64,000 nucleotides of DNA. Origin: Trueperaceae bacterium (lineage in GTDB: Bacteria; Deinococcota; Deinococci; Deinococcales; Trueperaceae). The position numbers were made by a program, and so were the translations under genes. Below, one piece after another: positions 372 through 9,248 of the stretch. The stretch lies in NCBI GenBank assembly GCA_011389865.1, contig JAABTL010000005.1:62001-126000 (forward strand), in the 5' to 3' direction. The first letter of the stretch is position 1; each line of letters starts with the position of its first letter. The notes beneath the pieces were generated by a model. It was given only the letters and a program-made list of their open reading frames with translations, had not been told where the DNA came from and did not search any database.

Positions 372-455
372 CGTCACCAGGGGTGCCCCCGACGAGGGGG
401 CTGAGACACACCCTCGGAACCTGAACCCGGTCGTGCGGGCGGAGGGAGCGTGACG
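372..455 (+). promoter_or_regulatory. TPP (thiamine pyrophosphate) riboswitch aptamer
   Basis: Conserved pieces CACCAGGGGTGCC...GGGGGCTGAGACACACCCTCGGAACCTGAACCCGGTCGTGCGGGCGGAGGGAG; P1 pairing CGTCAC(372-377)/GTGACG(450-455); directly upstream of thiB. Confidence 0.93.
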
Positions 456-506
456 CGGAGGCCGCCTCCGTCCCTCCCCGCCGACGCGGGCGGAAGGACG
501 GAACCC

Positions 507-1562
507 ATGCGCCCTCGCCCACGCATCGCCCTGATCACCCTCGCCCTCGCCGCCTTGGTCGTGGCCCCCGTCGGCCTCGCCCAGCGGGTCGTCCTGATGA
601 CCCACGACAGCTTCGCCGTCTCCCGCGACGTCCTCGACGCGTTCACCGCCGAGACCGGGATCGAGGTGGAGCTGCTCGCGGCGGGCGACGCCGGCGCCGC
701 GCTCAACCGCGCCGCCCTGACCCGGGCGCGGCCGCTCGCCGACGTCCTGTTCGGCGTCGACGAGGGACTGCTCGCGCGCGCCCGCGCGGCCGAGGTGTTC
801 GAGCCCTACCGCTCGCCGGCCCTCGACACGGTCGACCCCGCCTACCGCCTCGCCGACGACCACCTCGTCACGCCGATCGACGTCGGCTTCGTCGGCTTCA
901 ACCTCGACCCCGCCTGGTTCGCGGCGAACGGGGTGCCCCGGCCGACGTCGCTGGCCGACCTCGCGGACCCCGCCTACGCGCGCCTGACCGTGGTGACCGA
1001 CCCCGCCACCTCCAGCCCCGGCCTCGCGCTGCTGCTCGGCACGATCGGCGCCTGGGGCGAGGAGGACGCCTTCGCCTGGTGGGCCGCGCTGCGCGACGGC
1101 GGCGTCGCCGTGCGCTCCGGCTGGAGCGACGCGTACTACGGCGACTTCACCCGCTACGGTGGCGACCGCCCGATCGTCCTCTCCTACGCCTCCAGTCCCG
1201 CCGCCGAGGTGATGTTCTCCGAGTCTCCCGTCGACCCGGATGCCCCACCGACCGTCAACCTCGTGTGCGAAGCGTGCAGCGTCCGCCAAGTGGAGACCGC
1301 CGGCATCCTCGCCGGCACCCCGCGGCGCGCGGAGGCCGAGCGGCTGATCGACTTCCTGCTGTCCGCGACCTTCCAGGCCGACGTCCCCGGCACCATGTTC
1401 GTCTACCCCGTCCGCAGCGGGGTCCCGCTGCCCGACGCCTTCGATCTCTACGCCCGCGTGCCCGCGCCCGAGGAGCTCATGCCCCTGCCAGAGCGGCTCG
1501 ACGGCGCGACGGTCGACGGTTGGATCGCGCGCTGGACGCGGGTGGTGCTGAGGACGGATTAG
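507..1562 (+). CDS. thiB: Thiamine ABC transporter substrate-binding protein
   Basis: Signal peptide, ThiB-like 'THDSFAVSRDVLDAFTAETGIEVELLAAGDAGAALN'; downstream of TPP riboswitch; ATG 507 with AAGGACGG upstream. Confidence 0.9.
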   Translation: MRPRPRIALITLALAALVVAPVGLAQRVVLMTHDSFAVSRDVLDAFTAETGIEVELLAAGDAGAALNRAALTRARPLADVLFGVDEGLLARARAAEVFEPYRSPALDTVDPAYRLADDHLVTPIDVGFVGFNLDPAWFAANGVPRPTSLADLADPAYARLTVVTDPATSSPGLALLLGTIGAWGEEDAFAWWAALRDGGVAVRSGWSDAYYGDFTRYGGDRPIVLSYASSPAAEVMFSESPVDPDAPPTVNLVCEACSVRQVETAGILAGTPRRAEAERLIDFLLSATFQADVPGTMFVYPVRSGVPLPDAFDLYARVPAPEELMPLPERLDGATVDGWIARWTRVVLRTD

Positions 1563-1710: not shown

Positions 1711-2277
1711 ATGCATCCCGAAGACGAGATCCGAGACCTTCTGCGGCGGTTTCAGGACGGTTACACACAGCGCGACGCGAGCCAGTTGGATCCGTTCATG
1801 GCCCTGTTCCTGACCGATGCCGAGGTCATCGGGACCAACGGCATCGAACCGGGGGTGGAGGAGTGGTACCTGGGGCGGGACGCCGCCCGCGCCCTGGTGG
1901 CTGGCGATTGGAAGAGCTGGGGTGACGTGCGCGTGAACCTGCCCGGTGCATCGATCCGCGTCCGCGGTGACGTGGGCTGGATCGCGGCAGCCGCGACCGT
2001 CTCACAGACGATTGGGACCGAGACCTACGCCAACTTCCTTGCCTACGTCAAAGAGTTCGTCGACGACGTCGATCTCCCCGCCGAGGAGAAGCTGCACTAC
2101 ATCCTGCGCGGCGGAGCGAACATCGTCTACGAGCTGCGGCGCGGCGAACGGTTCGTCTGGCCGCTGCGCCTGACGGCCGTCGTCGTCCGTCAAGCCGACG
2201 GCTGGAAGTTCGGCCAGCTTCACTTCTCGTTCCCCACGATCTTCTTCCCCGACGTCCGGGTGATGGCCGACGGCTAG
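1711..2277 (+). CDS. SnoaL/NTF2-like domain protein
   Basis: 'EDEIRDLLRRFQDGYTQRDASQLDPFMALFLTDAEVIGTNGIEPG' typical of SnoaL-like/DUF4440 proteins. Confidence 0.75.
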   Translation: MHPEDEIRDLLRRFQDGYTQRDASQLDPFMALFLTDAEVIGTNGIEPGVEEWYLGRDAARALVAGDWKSWGDVRVNLPGASIRVRGDVGWIAAAATVSQTIGTETYANFLAYVKEFVDDVDLPAEEKLHYILRGGANIVYELRRGERFVWPLRLTAVVVRQADGWKFGQLHFSFPTIFFPDVRVMADG

Positions 2278-5200
2278 GGCGCCGGGCGCTCGGCCGGCTC
2301 GACCAGCGAGCGCAGGGCCTCGACGAACCAGCCCGCCACGTCTGCCGGCGAGCGGTCGTAGAACGCCGCCCAGGCGGCCGCGGTGTCCGCGTCGTAGCGC
2401 TCGCGGCCGGCCTCCCCCACCCGTGCCAGCCAGGCGCGGCGCACCGCGTGGCCCACCAGCACGTCGACCACCAGGTCGCCGTCGAGGCGCACGCCGGGAT
2501 CGTGGGCGACCACGTCGGCCATCGTCGCCAGCGCCTCGACGCTGAGGTGCCGGTACTCGGGCGCCGGGATGCGGTGCAGCAGGTGCTCGACGCGCAGCGC
2601 GAAGTTCTTCTCGCCGGCCGTGGTGGCCGCCCGGACCGCGGCGGCGTCGATGCGGTGGCGCCTGTCGAGCTTGTCGCCGATCACCAGGCCCCGCGCGTGG
2701 CCCAAGAGCGTCCACACCCGCGCGTAGAAGCCCGTCGGCACGCGGTTGAGCGCGCCCTCGCGCTGCCGCCAGCGCCACCAACCGCCGGGCGGCGGCGCGT
2801 CGGCCGCTCCCGACACCGCGGGCGGCTGCCAGCGGATGGCGCCTCCGGTGAGCGTCAGGCGCTCGCGGGCGCGCAGGCGCGAGGTGAGGTCGTCGCCGCG
2901 CGCGAGCACGCCGTCGAGCCTCGCCGCGACCTCCGCGGGCGAGAGGTTGACGAGCCGCTCGTGCCCCTCGTCGGGCGTCAGGTCGGACTCCGCCGCCAGC
3001 TGTGCCGCCAACAGCGCCACGAGCGCACCCACGCGCAGCGTCAGCACGCCGCGGAAGCGCTCGGGGGCGCCGCGCGCGAGGTCCGCCAGCGCCACCACGA
3101 TCTCCTGCGTCAGCGAGCGGTCGCGCAGGTCGCCGCTGCCGAAGGTGCGCAGGCGCTCGCGCAGCTCCGCCACCGGCACCGGGCGCGTCAGGACGGATCC
3201 CTCGCTGTACCCCTTGGCCAGCACGACCCGCTTCTGGGCCACCAGCAACTCGTCGAGCGCGTCGACGAACGCGGGGTCGAGGCGGTCGCGGACGCCGGCC
3301 ACCGTGCGCATGACGCCCCAGGCGCCGCGCTCGGCCGCCGCCGCGTCGACCTCGTCGAGCAACTCGCCGACGCGCGCGGACCGGCCCTCGGCCAGCGGCA
3401 CCAGGGCGTCGATGCCGTCACGCCGAGCGAGTTCGGCGAGCGCGGCGGCCTGCTGCTCGAGGCCGTCGCTGCCCACGACGCGCGCGACCAGCTCCGATCG
3501 GCCCTCGCGCTCGATCGCCAGCGCGGCGTCCGGCGCGAGCGGGGCCTCGTCCTCGCCGCGCCGCAGGCGCAGGTCGCCAGACGGGCGCGTCAGCGGCACG
3601 GCGGCGTCGTCGACCCAGTCGCCGAGGTCGTCGATGCGTTCGCTGGCGGCGGTCGGCAGCAGCGTCGCGAGCCGATCGAGGCGGACCGGAACGCCGTCCA
3701 CGCGACGGGCGCGGAGGTCGGCAACCAGGGTCAGCAACGCCTCGTGCCCCGACCCGAGGTGCTCGGGCCGCAGCAGGACGGCCAGCGTCGGCCGTCCGGA
3801 CCCGCGGGCGTGTCGGTGCAGGTAGGCGATCTCCGCCCGGATGCGCTGGGCCAGCCACGCGGGGTCGTGCGCGCCGAGCGACGAGCGCGGGTCGGTGGCC
3901 ACCGGCAGGAACAGGTAGGGATCGCCGCGCAGCCGGTACACGCGGGCGGTGGCCAGCGCCCCGGGCCGGCGCGCAGGGCGCCCCGACAGGCCCAGCGTGG
4001 GGCAGGCACCGACGCGTGCCCAGGCGGCCATCAGGCCATCGGCGCGCCGCACCCGCACCGGCGCGACCTGCGCCAGCGTCTGGCTGGGCGCCCCGAGGTC
4101 GGCGAAGGCTCCGCGGACGTCGTCGTCGGTGGCGAGCAGCGCGACCTGCACCACCGGACCGCGCGGTCGCTGCACGCCGAGGTGGCGGCCGAGCGGATCG
4201 AGGTCCGACGGATCGATCAGGCCCTCGTCGAGCATCTCCGCCAGCCACGCTAGGCTCTGGGCCCACAGGAGCGGCACGTTGTCGTTCGGGAGCCGTGGCC
4301 GCGAGCCGGGGGCGACCCGCTCGGCCTCGATCTCGTCGGCGGGGAGCGTGTAGAGCTCCGGCAACAGCGGCAGGCCGTCGCGCTCGACCGCGAGCTCGGC
4401 GAGGCGCGCACGATGCGCCGCCATCGCCGGCGCGTCGCCGCGGAAGGCGGCGTCGAGCGCCAGGTAGGCCTCGAACAGCGGCCACTCGGCCTCGATGCCC
4501 TCGAAGCGCGCGAGCTCCTCGGGTTCATAGTGCAGCCGCGTCGGATCCTCGAGCGGGGTCTGGTGGCCGTCGCGCAGGAAGCGCTTGAGGCCGTGCCGGC
4601 CGCGCAGGCGGTCCACCACCTCGCGCCGGGTCCGCTCGGCGAGCGCCGGCGCGTCGACGGCGAAGGCCGGGTAGCCGACGGCGGCCAGCAGGGCGGCGTC
4701 GACCTCCTTGGAGGCCGACTCGCGCGGCAGCATCGCCTCGAGCACCAGCCGCGCGCGGGCGACGTCGTCGGGCGCCACGTGCAGCGTCGAGCGCTGCCCG
4801 CCCGCCGCGCCGTAGAGGTCGAACCCGTCGAGCGCCTCCAGCGCGGCCTTGGCCAGCGCCACCGAGCTGGCGTTGAGTTCGACGCGGCCCTGGTTCGCCT
4901 TGTCGCCGCGCTCCCAGATCCCGAAGTCGGGGCTGCGGTAGGCGTTGCCGACGTAGTGCACGAGGTTCTGTACGAAACGCACCTCGACCTCGCTCTGCAC
5001 GATCGGCAGGCCCGAGGCCGTCACCTGGGCCAACTGCAGCAGGAAGAGCGCCGTGGCGTCGACCTGCAGGTGGCCCCACGCGGCATCGCCCACCACCGGC
5101 ATGCCGGTCGCCGTCGCGTACTTCGCGTGCAGCGCGTTGCGGGGGTCTTGGTTGGCCTTGAAGGCCTCGACCTTGTCGGCCTGCCGCATCATCGCGCCGA

Positions 5201-5459
5201 GCAGGCCGCGGAAGCCGCGGACCACCGCGTGCTCGAGCTCGTAGCGGCGGTCGGCGTGGGCGTCGACGCGGCGGTACGCCAGCGCCAGCCCCCAGGGCGC
5301 CAGCAGTCCGTAGACGACGTCGCGCACCCAGGCGTCGGTGTAGTCGCCGTGGGCGTTGACCGCGGTGCTGGCCGGCAGCAGGCCGGTCACCGGATGCTGG
5401 CGGGCGAGGATGACGCGGCGGATCTGCTGGTGGAGGCGGTCGAGGGGATCGGGGGTCAC
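2274..5459 (-). CDS. Phosphorylase kinase regulatory subunit alpha/beta-like protein (GH15-like N-terminal domain)
   Basis: Strong resemblance to PHKA/PHKB: 'NPVTGLLPAS', 'DAWVRDVVYGLLAPWGLALAYR', 'VVGDAAWGHLQVDATALFLLQLAQVTASGLPI', 'FGIWERGDKANQGRVELNASSVALAKAALEALDGFDL', C-terminal 'EGALNRVPTGFYARVW', 'LLHRIPAPEYRHLSVEALATMADV'. Start taken as GTG 5459. Confidence 0.9.
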   Translation of the reverse strand: MTPDPLDRLHQQIRRVILARQHPVTGLLPASTAVNAHGDYTDAWVRDVVYGLLAPWGLALAYRRVDAHADRRYELEHAVVRGFRGLLGAMMRQADKVEAFKANQDPRNALHAKYATATGMPVVGDAAWGHLQVDATALFLLQLAQVTASGLPIVQSEVEVRFVQNLVHYVGNAYRSPDFGIWERGDKANQGRVELNASSVALAKAALEALDGFDLYGAAGGQRSTLHVAPDDVARARLVLEAMLPRESASKEVDAALLAAVGYPAFAVDAPALAERTRREVVDRLRGRHGLKRFLRDGHQTPLEDPTRLHYEPEELARFEGIEAEWPLFEAYLALDAAFRGDAPAMAAHRARLAELAVERDGLPLLPELYTLPADEIEAERVAPGSRPRLPNDNVPLLWAQSLAWLAEMLDEGLIDPSDLDPLGRHLGVQRPRGPVVQVALLATDDDVRGAFADLGAPSQTLAQVAPVRVRRADGLMAAWARVGACPTLGLSGRPARRPGALATARVYRLRGDPYLFLPVATDPRSSLGAHDPAWLAQRIRAEIAYLHRHARGSGRPTLAVLLRPEHLGSGHEALLTLVADLRARRVDGVPVRLDRLATLLPTAASERIDDLGDWVDDAAVPLTRPSGDLRLRRGEDEAPLAPDAALAIEREGRSELVARVVGSDGLEQQAAALAELARRDGIDALVPLAEGRSARVGELLDEVDAAAAERGAWGVMRTVAGVRDRLDPAFVDALDELLVAQKRVVLAKGYSEGSVLTRPVPVAELRERLRTFGSGDLRDRSLTQEIVVALADLARGAPERFRGVLTLRVGALVALLAAQLAAESDLTPDEGHERLVNLSPAEVAARLDGVLARGDDLTSRLRARERLTLTGGAIRWQPPAVSGAADAPPPGGWWRWRQREGALNRVPTGFYARVWTLLGHARGLVIGDKLDRRHRIDAAAVRAATTAGEKNFALRVEHLLHRIPAPEYRHLSVEALATMADVVAHDPGVRLDGDLVVDVLVGHAVRRAWLARVGEAGRERYDADTAAAWAAFYDRSPADVAGWFVEALRSLVEPAERPAP

Positions 5460-5505
5460 GGGCGGGCGCGATGGTAGCACGCGCCCGCCCGAGCCCCGCT
5501 TCCGG

Positions 5506-7404
5506 TCAGTTCAGGACGGCGTCGCCGGCCGCCACGCGGTCAGCGACCGCCGCGGCGTCGCCGACCTCGCCAGGGCCGCTGGCCACCTCGTGGCGGCCGT
5601 GGTCGTCGCCCCACAACGCCGCCATCTGCGGCGAGCGCAGCAGCACCTCGTCGAGCGTGCCGCGGGCGACGATGCGGCCGCCGTCCATGAGCAGCACCTG
5701 GTCGGCGCGCTCCAGGGCCGCCCGGCGGTGCGACACCACCAGGCAGGTGGCGTCGGCGCGCTCCTCGAACAGCCGCCGCCACAGCTCGCGCTCGGTCTCG
5801 ACGTCGAGCGCGCTGGAGAGGTCGTCGAACACCAGCAGGTCGGCGTCGCGCAGGAACATGCGGGCCGCCGCCGAGCGCTGCACCTGGCCGCCCGAGAGCT
5901 TGACGCCGCGGGTGCCGACCTCGGTGTCGAGGCCGCGATCGAGGTGCGCCAGGTCGTGCTCGAGCACCGCGAGGCGCACGGCCGTGGGCAGCACCGCGTC
6001 GCCGTCGCGGCGCCCCTGCACGACGTTCTCGCGCAGCGTGTCGGAGAAGAGCCGCGGCACCTGCCCGGTGTAGGCCGAGCGCGGCGGGACGAACCAGCTC
6101 GCCGGGTCCGCGACGACCTCGCCGTTCCAGCGGACGGTGCCCGACTCGATCGGCAGCAGGCCGATGACGGCCTTGACCAGCGTCGACTTGCCGGAGCCGA
6201 CCGCCCCCGTGACGACCGTGAAGCCGCCCCGGCGCAGCGTGAAGGAGGCGTCGTGCACGGCCGTGGCGCCGTCCGCGTGGCGCACGGACAGGTGCTCCAC
6301 GCGCAACTCCCGCAGCGGCGAGCGCGGCGGGCGCGGGTCCGTGAACGGCGGCACCTCGCCCTCGAGGTGGAGGTCGGCGTTCGCGACGACGACCTCGGGG
6401 CCCGCGCCGGCCAGCAGCCCGTCGAGGCGCTCGAAGGCGACGCCCGTGCGCTTGTGCTGCACCATCATCGCGCCGAGGAAGGAGACGGTGCCGGTCAGGC
6501 GCGGCAGGAAAGTGACGAAGAGGGCGAAGTCGCCCACCGTGAAGGTGCCGCGCTGCATCGCGCCGGCGCCGACGAGCAGGATGACGCCGGTGGCCAGGTG
6601 GACCATGTTGTCGTTGACGTTCTTGAAGACCTCGGCCAGCAGCGCGTCGCGCACGGCGGCCTTGCGGCGCACGTCGCCGAGGCGCGCGAAGGCGTGCACC
6701 ATGCTCGCCTCGCGGCCCGCGCCCTGCACCGACTGCACGGCCTGGAAGGTCTCGCCCACGAAGTCCGTCACGCGGCCGGTCGCCTCGCGCAGCGCGCGCC
6801 GCACCCGGCGGATGGTCGGCCGCAGGACGTTGGTGAGCACCAGCGTCAACAGCAGGGGGAGGAGGATCAGGCCCGTCATCGTCGGGTCGATGCGGAACAT
6901 GATGGCCAGCGCCACGACGCCGAAGATCGCCAGTCCCCAGAAGTCGATCCAGATCTCGATGTACTGCGCGATGTCGTCGACGTCGTCGCGGAAGCGGCTG
7001 ATCGCCTCGGAGGGCGAGTCGGGCAGGCGCCGCACGCCGGGGGCCGTCAGCAGGTAGGCGAGCAGGTTGCGGCGCATGGTGAGCACCAGCTGCGCCCAGT
7101 AGCTGGCGAAGACCCACACGCCGGCGCCGAGGATGCCGATGCGCGCCACGTCGACCGAGAGGGCCAGCGCGAGGAAGGTCCAGGGGCTGGTGCTGGCGGC
7201 GGCGCCGGCGCCGAGCGCGTCGAAGATGCCCTTGAACAGCACGCCGGCGAAGACCGGCAGGGCGTGCACGAAGGACCAGACGACGACGTTGACGAGCATG
7301 AGGCGCGGCCGCGACGAGGCGAGGCGCCAGGCGAGCGCCAGCGTGCCGGGGGGCGCGGCGCGGGCGCGCCGCGCCATCGAATCCGGGGGAACGGTGGTGG
7401 TCAT
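5506..7404 (-). CDS. Heterodimeric ABC exporter subunit (TMD-NBD), Walker B ends in Asp-Asp
   Basis: Walker A GAVGSGKST, signature LSGGQ, Walker B LLVFDD, H-loop VVSHR; overlaps the upstream partner stop. Confidence 0.9.
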   Translation of the reverse strand: MTTTVPPDSMARRARAAPPGTLALAWRLASSRPRLMLVNVVVWSFVHALPVFAGVLFKGIFDALGAGAAASTSPWTFLALALSVDVARIGILGAGVWVFASYWAQLVLTMRRNLLAYLLTAPGVRRLPDSPSEAISRFRDDVDDIAQYIEIWIDFWGLAIFGVVALAIMFRIDPTMTGLILLPLLLTLVLTNVLRPTIRRVRRALREATGRVTDFVGETFQAVQSVQGAGREASMVHAFARLGDVRRKAAVRDALLAEVFKNVNDNMVHLATGVILLVGAGAMQRGTFTVGDFALFVTFLPRLTGTVSFLGAMMVQHKRTGVAFERLDGLLAGAGPEVVVANADLHLEGEVPPFTDPRPPRSPLRELRVEHLSVRHADGATAVHDASFTLRRGGFTVVTGAVGSGKSTLVKAVIGLLPIESGTVRWNGEVVADPASWFVPPRSAYTGQVPRLFSDTLRENVVQGRRDGDAVLPTAVRLAVLEHDLAHLDRGLDTEVGTRGVKLSGGQVQRSAAARMFLRDADLLVFDDLSSALDVETERELWRRLFEERADATCLVVSHRRAALERADQVLLMDGGRIVARGTLDEVLLRSPQMAALWGDDHGRHEVASGPGEVGDAAAVADRVAAGDAVLN

Positions 7405-9248
7405 GCGAGCTCCTCGAGCAGTTCTTCGTCGCCGTCGGCGAGCCCGAGGGCGACGCGCCGCAGGCGGGCGTAGCGGGAGTGGGGGTCGGCGGCGAGCACG
7501 GCACGCGGGCCGTGCTCGATCAAGCGCGCGTCGCTCATGATGGCGACCGCGTCGACGCGCTCGACGGTCTCGAGGCGGTGCGCGATGATCACCGCGGTGC
7601 GGCCGCGCAGCAGCCGCTCGAGCGCGCGTTCGAGGCGCTGCTCGGTGACGGGGTCGAGGCGGCTGGACGGCTCGTCGAGCACCACCAGGCCGGGGTCGGC
7701 GAGGAAGACGCGCGCGAGGGCGAGGAGCTGGGCCTCGCCCGCCGAGAGGCTGGCGCCGCCGGCGCGGACGGGCGTGTCGAGGCCCTGCGGCAGGCCGTCG
7801 AACCAGGCGCCCAGGCCGACCTCGTGCAGCGCGCCGATCAGGCGCTCGTCGGGGACGGTGTCGTCGAAGAAGGAGAGGTTGTCGCGCACGGAGGCCTGGA
7901 ACAGCTGGACCTCCTGCGTGACGAGCCCGACGCGCCGCCGCAACTCGGGGAGCGGCACCTCGCGCGCGTCGACGCCGCCGAGCCGCACGCTCCCCTCGAG
8001 CGGGTCGTAGAAGCGGAAGAGCAGCCGCGTGAGGGTCGTCTTGCCGCTGCCGGTGCGCCCGAGCAGGCCGAGGTGGTGGCCGGCGGGCACGACCAGGTCG
8101 ATGCCCTGCAGGTTTGGGTCGGCGTCGGGCTCCGCGTCGTGGTAGCGGAACGTCACGCCCTCGAACCTCACGTCGAGCGGCCCGTCAGGCAGCCGGCGCG
8201 CGTGCTCGCCGTCGACGACGGTCAGGCGGGATCGCTCGCGCAGCAGCTCGTCGACGCGGCCGACGCTGGCGCCCGCGCGCTGCAGCAGCTGCATCTGCTG
8301 GGTGATCTGCTCGATGGGCGACTGCAGCATGATGAGGTACTGGAAGACCATGTAGGCGGTGCCGAGGGTGATCGCACCGGCCATGACCAGTTGGATGCTG
8401 GAGCCGATGGTGACCAGCATGCCGAGCACGAACAGGCCGTAGCTCGAGAGCCAGACGACCGAGCGGGCCATCCAGGCGCGCCGCACGTCGTGGAAGAAGG
8501 TGCGCATCGCGTGGATGAAGCGGTGCAGCGCGTGGGCCCCGCCGCCGTTGGCGCGCACGTCCTGGATGCCGGTCAGGCGCTCCTCCACGAAGCCGAAGAC
8601 CTGGGCCGCGGCCTCGCGCTCGCGGGTCGTCGCGGGCACCGCGACCTCGCGCAGGGCCACCATCACCGCGACCTCGAGCAGCGTGAACACCGTCAGGGCC
8701 AGGCCGATCCACGCGTTCTCGAGCCACAGGACGACGAGGATGCCGGCGAGCAGCAGCAGGCCACCGATGACGCGCACCGCGAACTGGGCGAAGAAATCGC
8801 TGAGCGCGGTGACGTCGCCGTCGATGCGCTCGATCATCTCGCCGGAGGTGCGGGCCGAGTGGAAGGTCATGTCGAGCGCCAGGCAGTGCTCGAGCAGGTC
8901 GCGGCGCAGCAGGTTGGTGGCGGTCCAGCCGACCGCGGCGCCGAGCACGGTCGCCGCGCCGCCGAGCAGTTGGGTCCCCAACGCGACGGCGAGGAACACG
9001 CCGGCGAGGCCGACCAGGGCGGCGCCCGCGCCCTCGGCCAGCGTGCCGGCGGCCACGCCGGTGGCGGTGTCGATGAAGCGCCGCAGGACCTGCGGCACCA
9101 GCAGCTGTAGGCCGATGCCGACGAGCAGCAGCACGGCGAGGACGGCGGCGGCGCCGGCCTGGGGGGCGAGGTAGCGGCCGAGGAGCGCGCCGTAGCGGCG
9201 CAGGCTGGCGGTGGCCGGGATCGTGGATGTGGGGGTCGTGGCGGTCAT
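7401..9248 (-). CDS. Heterodimeric ABC exporter subunit (TMD-NBD), degenerate signature LSAGE
   Basis: Walker A GRTGSGKTT, LSAGEAQ, Walker B LVVLDEPSS; ATG 9248 (MTATTPTSTIPA) preceded by GAGAGG. Confidence 0.9.
   Translation of the reverse strand: MTATTPTSTIPATASLRRYGALLGRYLAPQAGAAAVLAVLLLVGIGLQLLVPQVLRRFIDTATGVAAGTLAEGAGAALVGLAGVFLAVALGTQLLGGAATVLGAAVGWTATNLLRRDLLEHCLALDMTFHSARTSGEMIERIDGDVTALSDFFAQFAVRVIGGLLLLAGILVVLWLENAWIGLALTVFTLLEVAVMVALREVAVPATTREREAAAQVFGFVEERLTGIQDVRANGGGAHALHRFIHAMRTFFHDVRRAWMARSVVWLSSYGLFVLGMLVTIGSSIQLVMAGAITLGTAYMVFQYLIMLQSPIEQITQQMQLLQRAGASVGRVDELLRERSRLTVVDGEHARRLPDGPLDVRFEGVTFRYHDAEPDADPNLQGIDLVVPAGHHLGLLGRTGSGKTTLTRLLFRFYDPLEGSVRLGGVDAREVPLPELRRRVGLVTQEVQLFQASVRDNLSFFDDTVPDERLIGALHEVGLGAWFDGLPQGLDTPVRAGGASLSAGEAQLLALARVFLADPGLVVLDEPSSRLDPVTEQRLERALERLLRGRTAVIIAHRLETVERVDAVAIMSDARLIEHGPRAVLAADPHSRYARLRRVALGLADGDEELLEELA

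Follow-up and report, generated by a model that had tools for sequence, protein, structure and literature searches.

What a protein resembling the alpha and beta subunits of phosphorylase kinase (PhK) does in a Trueperaceae bacterium is the question raised by a gene in the window, by which we mean the whole 64,000-nucleotide stretch of DNA that was analysed. The gene occupies positions 2274..5480 on the minus strand as an uninterrupted reading frame, from a GTG start to a TAG stop, and encodes 1068 amino acids comprising a GH15-like domain followed by domains D2-D5 with a KPBB_C domain. The original prediction had given the gene as 2274-5459; the frame itself was upheld but its upper boundary was not, as 5459 falls seven codons inside the frame. 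Profile searches with phmmer and Pfam, an alignment of 45 relatives ranging from 94% to 33% identity and a G+C content by codon position of 0.82/0.51/0.96, a pattern typical of a high-GC gene, exclude a chance frame and identify the ORF as coding. The genome carries one copy, on contig C53, and no N-terminal secretion signal was evident when the protein sequence was judged by eye.

Comparison with all PDB chains using phmmer retrieved human PhK alpha (E 1.7e-194; stretches 13-610, 663-860 and 898-1000) and human PhK beta (E 1.2e-152; stretches 11-855 and 901-1013), with no other match of note. A profile built from 46 bacterial members gave E-values of 0 and 1.1e-273 against human alpha and beta, respectively. 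Pfam identified GH15 (PF00723) at residues 16-818 (E 1.1e-61) and KPBB_C (PF19292) at residues 831-1064 (E 2.1e-77), both far above cut-off; the latter, converted from residue numbers to 2286..2990 on the minus strand, is the counterpart of the human C-terminal domains. NCBIfam held no fitting model, its sole match being a weak partial trehalase (E 4e-4) far below cut-off. An AlphaFold2 model based on the 46-sequence alignment (pLDDT 84.4, pTM 0.87) was compared with the PDB by Foldseek, which ranked human alpha and beta first and aligned the predicted structure over its full length at TM 0.80-0.85 (8jfk/8z5r chains). The next hit was the catalytic domain of a GH15 enzyme with a query TM of only 0.24, and this drop after the full-length match indicated that D2-D5, which are absent from ordinary glucoamylases, are present here. 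The claim of a full-length homologue of both subunits, three motifs of which had been quoted and were all found in the protein, was thus borne out, and the match extended beyond the GH15 domain in the profile search and in the predicted structure alike. A generic glucoamylase without relationship to PhK was ruled out by the KPBB_C match together with the full-length fold, and neither of the two outcomes named beforehand as refuting the prediction was borne out.

Set against its closest known counterparts, the window protein shares with human alpha its domains, full-length homology (TM 0.80-0.82), both catalytic glutamates and 45% identity over D1-D2, although it is approximately 155 residues shorter than the 1223-residue human chain. 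The model likewise matches the predicted fold to human beta over the full length (PDB 8jfk, 8jfl; TM 0.80-0.85). GH15 glucoamylases such as that of A. niger (PDB 6frv) share the family and the fold of the N-terminal domain but lack D2-D5/KPBB_C (whole-model TM 0.24, identity 14%). Cyanobacterial GH15-KPBB_C proteins, one of them in Synechococcus elongatus, correspond in length, domains and active site at 46-50% identity, whilst having other gene neighbours and exceeding the window protein in their similarity to human alpha (identity over D1-D2 of up to 55%).

Inspection of the GH15 catalytic positions found both glutamates intact. By alignment, Glu190 (codon 4909..4911, minus strand) is the counterpart of Glu185 in human alpha, and Glu375 (codon 4354..4356, minus strand) that of Glu371, which is replaced by lysine in human beta; both sets of coordinates were derived from residue numbers. 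Glu185 and Glu371 have been named as catalytic in human alpha, and beta is described as being without some catalytic residues (PMC10978961). In an alignment of 70 bacterial homologues, Glu190 was kept in 68 of the 68 sequences covering the position and Glu375 in 70 of 70. Residues R53, D54, W189, W333, W406 and Q408 were equally invariant in the homologues covering them (68-70 sequences), and these we take, from knowledge of the family rather than from structural superposition, to line the GH15 substrate site. Human alpha has equivalents of all these residues, whereas human beta carries Q, F and K in place of the Arg53, Trp333 and Glu375 that the window protein retains. The invariance of the glutamates and the surrounding residues across bacterial homologues indicates strong purifying selection on the active site. 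Conserved residues do not in themselves prove hydrolysis, as human PhK has the same two glutamates and is nevertheless inert on maltose, isomaltose and glycogen, both as the holoenzyme and as alpha-gamma-delta (PMC10978961).

The gene context of relatives in other bacteria provided a second line of evidence. Pfam and NCBIfam served to assign the neighbouring families at representative loci, and the others were assigned by BLAST or visual inspection. In Pseudomonadota and Campylobacterota, the PhK-like gene adjoined, or was one gene removed from, glucose or glycogen genes on the same strand in 18 of 27 loci. These 18 fall into five arrangements, which are the safer count because loci from related species are not independent. 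Sulfurimonas (L024, L030) displayed the order alpha-glucan phosphorylase, PhK-like gene and glucokinase (4 bp gap), with phosphoglucomutase downstream; in L024, GH57 and a nucleotidyl transferase/phosphomutase gene were divergent upstream. Methanotroph-type loci (L023, L026, L033) carried the PhK-like gene followed by glucokinase at a spacing of -13 to +15 bp. A third arrangement, found in gammaproteobacterial loci (L110, L112, L114, L119), comprised glucokinase, eda and the PhK-like gene. In L114 these came after zwf, pgl and edd, an order that by eye recurred in L119 and in part in L110; GH77 followed by a MalK-type ABC gene lay downstream in L119, and GH77 was also present in L112. The remaining arrangements were glgB, glgX, malQ and PhK-like gene (L101), and PhK-like gene, glgB and glgX (L103, L104, L111, L113, L115, L117, L118, L120). 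Glucokinase was therefore adjacent or one gene away in three lineages, namely Sulfurimonas, methanotrophs and the gammaproteobacterial loci. The same probes found glucan-gene neighbours in none of 43 other loci, which belonged to Trueperaceae, Cyanobacteria and one member of Abditibacteriota. Separately, all four Entner-Doudoroff loci encoded a similar protein of 412-464 aa downstream (L110:5527-6807, L112:3183-4418, L114:11366-12646, L119:3054-4445), with the motif QIASPSHY/QIANPGNY..DLRYPWS or DLSLPWS.

The original prediction had left three functions open: a glycogen-sensing scaffold, an active GH15-type hydrolase and the partner of an unlinked kinase. On account of the catalytic residues and the gene context in other bacteria, the hydrolase is favoured over the kinase partner. 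Judged from its sequence, the window protein is, on balance, probably a stand-alone, cytoplasmic and enzymatic member of the PhK alpha/beta family, of the glucose-releasing GH15 alpha-glucosidase/glucoamylase type, and a cytoplasmic enzyme of this kind appears preferable to a kinase scaffold. Such an enzyme would cleave an alpha-glucan or maltodextrin, or perhaps another alpha-glucoside, in an exo-acting manner to yield free glucose, which glucokinase would then phosphorylate; D2-D5 may serve in glucan binding, oligomer assembly or control of the active site. Architecture and residues are established for the protein, and operon links for its relatives; the activity, its product and its substrate are inferred, and the function may carry over to Trueperaceae. 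Physiology lends some support, in that the methanotroph Methylotuvimicrobium alcaliphilum passes free glucose from its glycogen to glucokinase and glucose dehydrogenase, although other enzymes are credited there (PMC8062543).

A non-hydrolytic glucan sensor or scaffold is the alternative that survives best, although we consider it appreciably less probable. Here the GH15 domain would bind glucan ends or oligosaccharides without cutting them and D2-D5 would signal to a partner enzyme such as a glycogen phosphorylase, branching enzyme or glucokinase. That human alpha keeps an intact-looking site in which activity has gone undetected leaves room for such a role, and the authors of the human structure considered that the GH15-like domains likely bind acarbose, which enhances the kinase (PMC10978961). 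Linkage to glgP, glgB, glgX and glk would suit a regulator equally well, and conservation across the family extends to the large additional domains D2-D5. Against this, binding alone would not require both glutamates to persist without exception in approximately 70 sequences from several phyla, and beta demonstrates how readily catalytic glutamates are lost once activity is unneeded.

In the window itself, the PhK-like gene follows an ABC exporter gene pair, as had been predicted. The pair lies directly upstream on the same minus strand at 5506..9185 (the first gene at 5506-7404, the second extending to about 9185), separated by a gap of 25 bp, and a shared transcript is possible. As many as nine Trueperaceae loci share families that cover the exporter region. 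This arrangement would suit a function in export, whereby the PhK-like protein acts with the adjacent exporter, for example by trimming or making an exported glucoside. We regard that as improbable, given that neither the more distant Trueperaceae loci (L019, L029, L085, L089) nor other phyla share the exporter families, and that the NCBIfam matches fall below cut-off, so that the exporter substrate cannot be read from them. On the other side, a SnoaL-like ORF on the plus strand (1711-2277; 188 aa; PF13474, E 5e-10) converges on the PhK-like gene with a stop codon overlap of 4 bp, and beyond it lies a solute-binding-protein gene (450-1562, plus strand; PF13343). A family that resembles the latter gene in sequence was found beside the PhK-like gene, on the opposite strand, in 15 Trueperaceae loci including distant ones. 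The window's own neighbours thus carry little information on function. No PF02685 glucokinase was found in the genome; ROK-family proteins are present, some of which may be glucokinases.

Features specific to the PhK holoenzyme were absent. In human PhK, cysteine 1220 of alpha and cysteine 1090 of beta carry farnesyl groups, and the gamma kinase domain is contacted by Lys588 and Tyr593 of alpha. The C-terminus of the window protein reads VEPAERPAP, with no CaaX prenylation motif. At the positions of Lys588 and Tyr593, the two gamma-kinase contacts compared, it carries D and R, so the contact residues are not conserved; bacterial homologues are acidic (E/D) in their majority at 588 and mixed at 593. 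The window protein further differs from human alpha in having no known linked kinase or calmodulin-type partner. The observation that neither phosphorylase nor kinase is linked to the gene held at the level of the genome, where the sole phosphorylase match lies on contig C11 and the four listed of five Ser/Thr kinase matches lie on C29, C44 (two) and C22, with the window on C53. Trueperaceae that lack the PhK-like gene nearly all encode a phosphorylase and a Ser/Thr kinase, as do those that have it, and co-occurrence is uninformative because both are nearly universal. The existence of these genes elsewhere in the genome would permit a genuine PhK-like system, in which the protein regulates a Ser/Thr kinase encoded at another locus and that kinase in turn phosphorylates glycogen phosphorylase. 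This is the least credible explanation, opposed by that near-universality, by a phosphorylase whose match falls mainly within positions 220-579 of the Pfam model, in contrast to a full-length animal-type enzyme, by the missing contact residues and prenylation site, and by the lack of a linked kinase in the loci examined by eye.

The PhK-like gene is no rarity of this genome, being common in Cyanobacteria and caught by the Pfam KPBB_C model. A scan using one genome per GTDB species returned 38 relatives from Trueperaceae, Cyanobacteria, Methylococcaceae and relatives, Sulfurimonas, Cellvibrionaceae/Alteromonadaceae and Abditibacteriota. Probing with KPBB_C identified 16 of 112 Deinococcota genomes, all of them among the 39 Trueperaceae genomes searched, 71 of 294 cyanobacterial genomes over cut-off and 8 of 399 Pseudomonadota; for one order within that phylum the count was 14 of 196. 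Distribution was patchy in Pseudomonadota, Campylobacterota and Abditibacteriota; amongst 14 control genomes the family was present only in Synechococcus elongatus, and a plasmid search yielded no match to plasmid-borne copies. Some copies (L003, L034) were split over two or three frames, through sequencing error or decay. The cyanobacterial genome G318 contained two KPBB_C genes of unequal divergence (L082 and L053; E 6e-112 and 4e-93), representing an independent bacterial duplication or transfer. The window's genome also displayed a second, weak GH15 match at a contig end (L098, G000:C64:7-318; E 8e-8), probably a cut-off ordinary GH15 gene.

The relationship between the bacterial and human proteins bears on the origin of PhK. 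Over D1-D2, identity to human alpha was 55% for one cyanobacterial homologue (compared over 596 positions) and 43% for human beta. That alpha is nearer to the cyanobacterial protein than to its own partner subunit hints that both PhK subunits derive from a common ancestor that was a bacterial-type enzyme. Eukaryotic alpha and beta probably arose when the gene for such a protein was duplicated, with alpha keeping the site and beta losing the catalytic base. The phylogeny, in which human was the only eukaryote sampled, placed human alpha among cyanobacterial-type members of the family with support of 85/92; human alpha and beta formed long branches, and the alternative of a cyanobacterial-type clade that excludes the human sequence survived an AU test (p 0.39). 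A single Trueperaceae clade was neither supported nor rejected (p 0.43). Transfer of a PhK-type gene from bacteria to eukaryotes would be an attractive explanation. A recent transfer from an animal to the window's genome was unsupported, because close orthologues occur across Trueperaceae and the gene is positioned among bacterial sequences.

We tentatively propose, as a scenario that may well prove wrong, that animal PhK subunits represent a recruited, glucose-releasing GH15 enzyme of cyanobacterial type, coupled to glucokinase and still active in bacteria, that eukaryotes acquired and duplicated and that changed from a glucan hydrolase into a glucan-linked kinase regulator. If this is true, the bacterial proteins would reveal what purpose the intact but unexplained active site in human alpha serves, a glucoamylase-like site whose role, according to the 2024 structure paper (PMC10978961), needs further study. 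Bacterial relatives are tractable proteins, free of kinase and calmodulin, in which the domain's activity and ligand could be measured, and offer a route to how a metabolic enzyme turned into a kinase regulator. The existence of bacterial members is already database knowledge, since Pfam recognizes the GH15 and KPBB_C pair automatically. Our search of the open-access literature, outside which lay the 2003 GH15-like-domain and 2010 acarbose-binding papers, returned nothing linking PhK alpha/beta with bacterial homologues. What is described here is a kinase-free, single-protein and probably catalytic form of the PhK alpha/beta family. Within the tree, three sequences from cyanobacterial genomes of 2.4-3.7 Mb (L073, L074, L075) formed a strongly diverged clade that has kept the catalytic glutamates on its long branch (1.2 changes per column).
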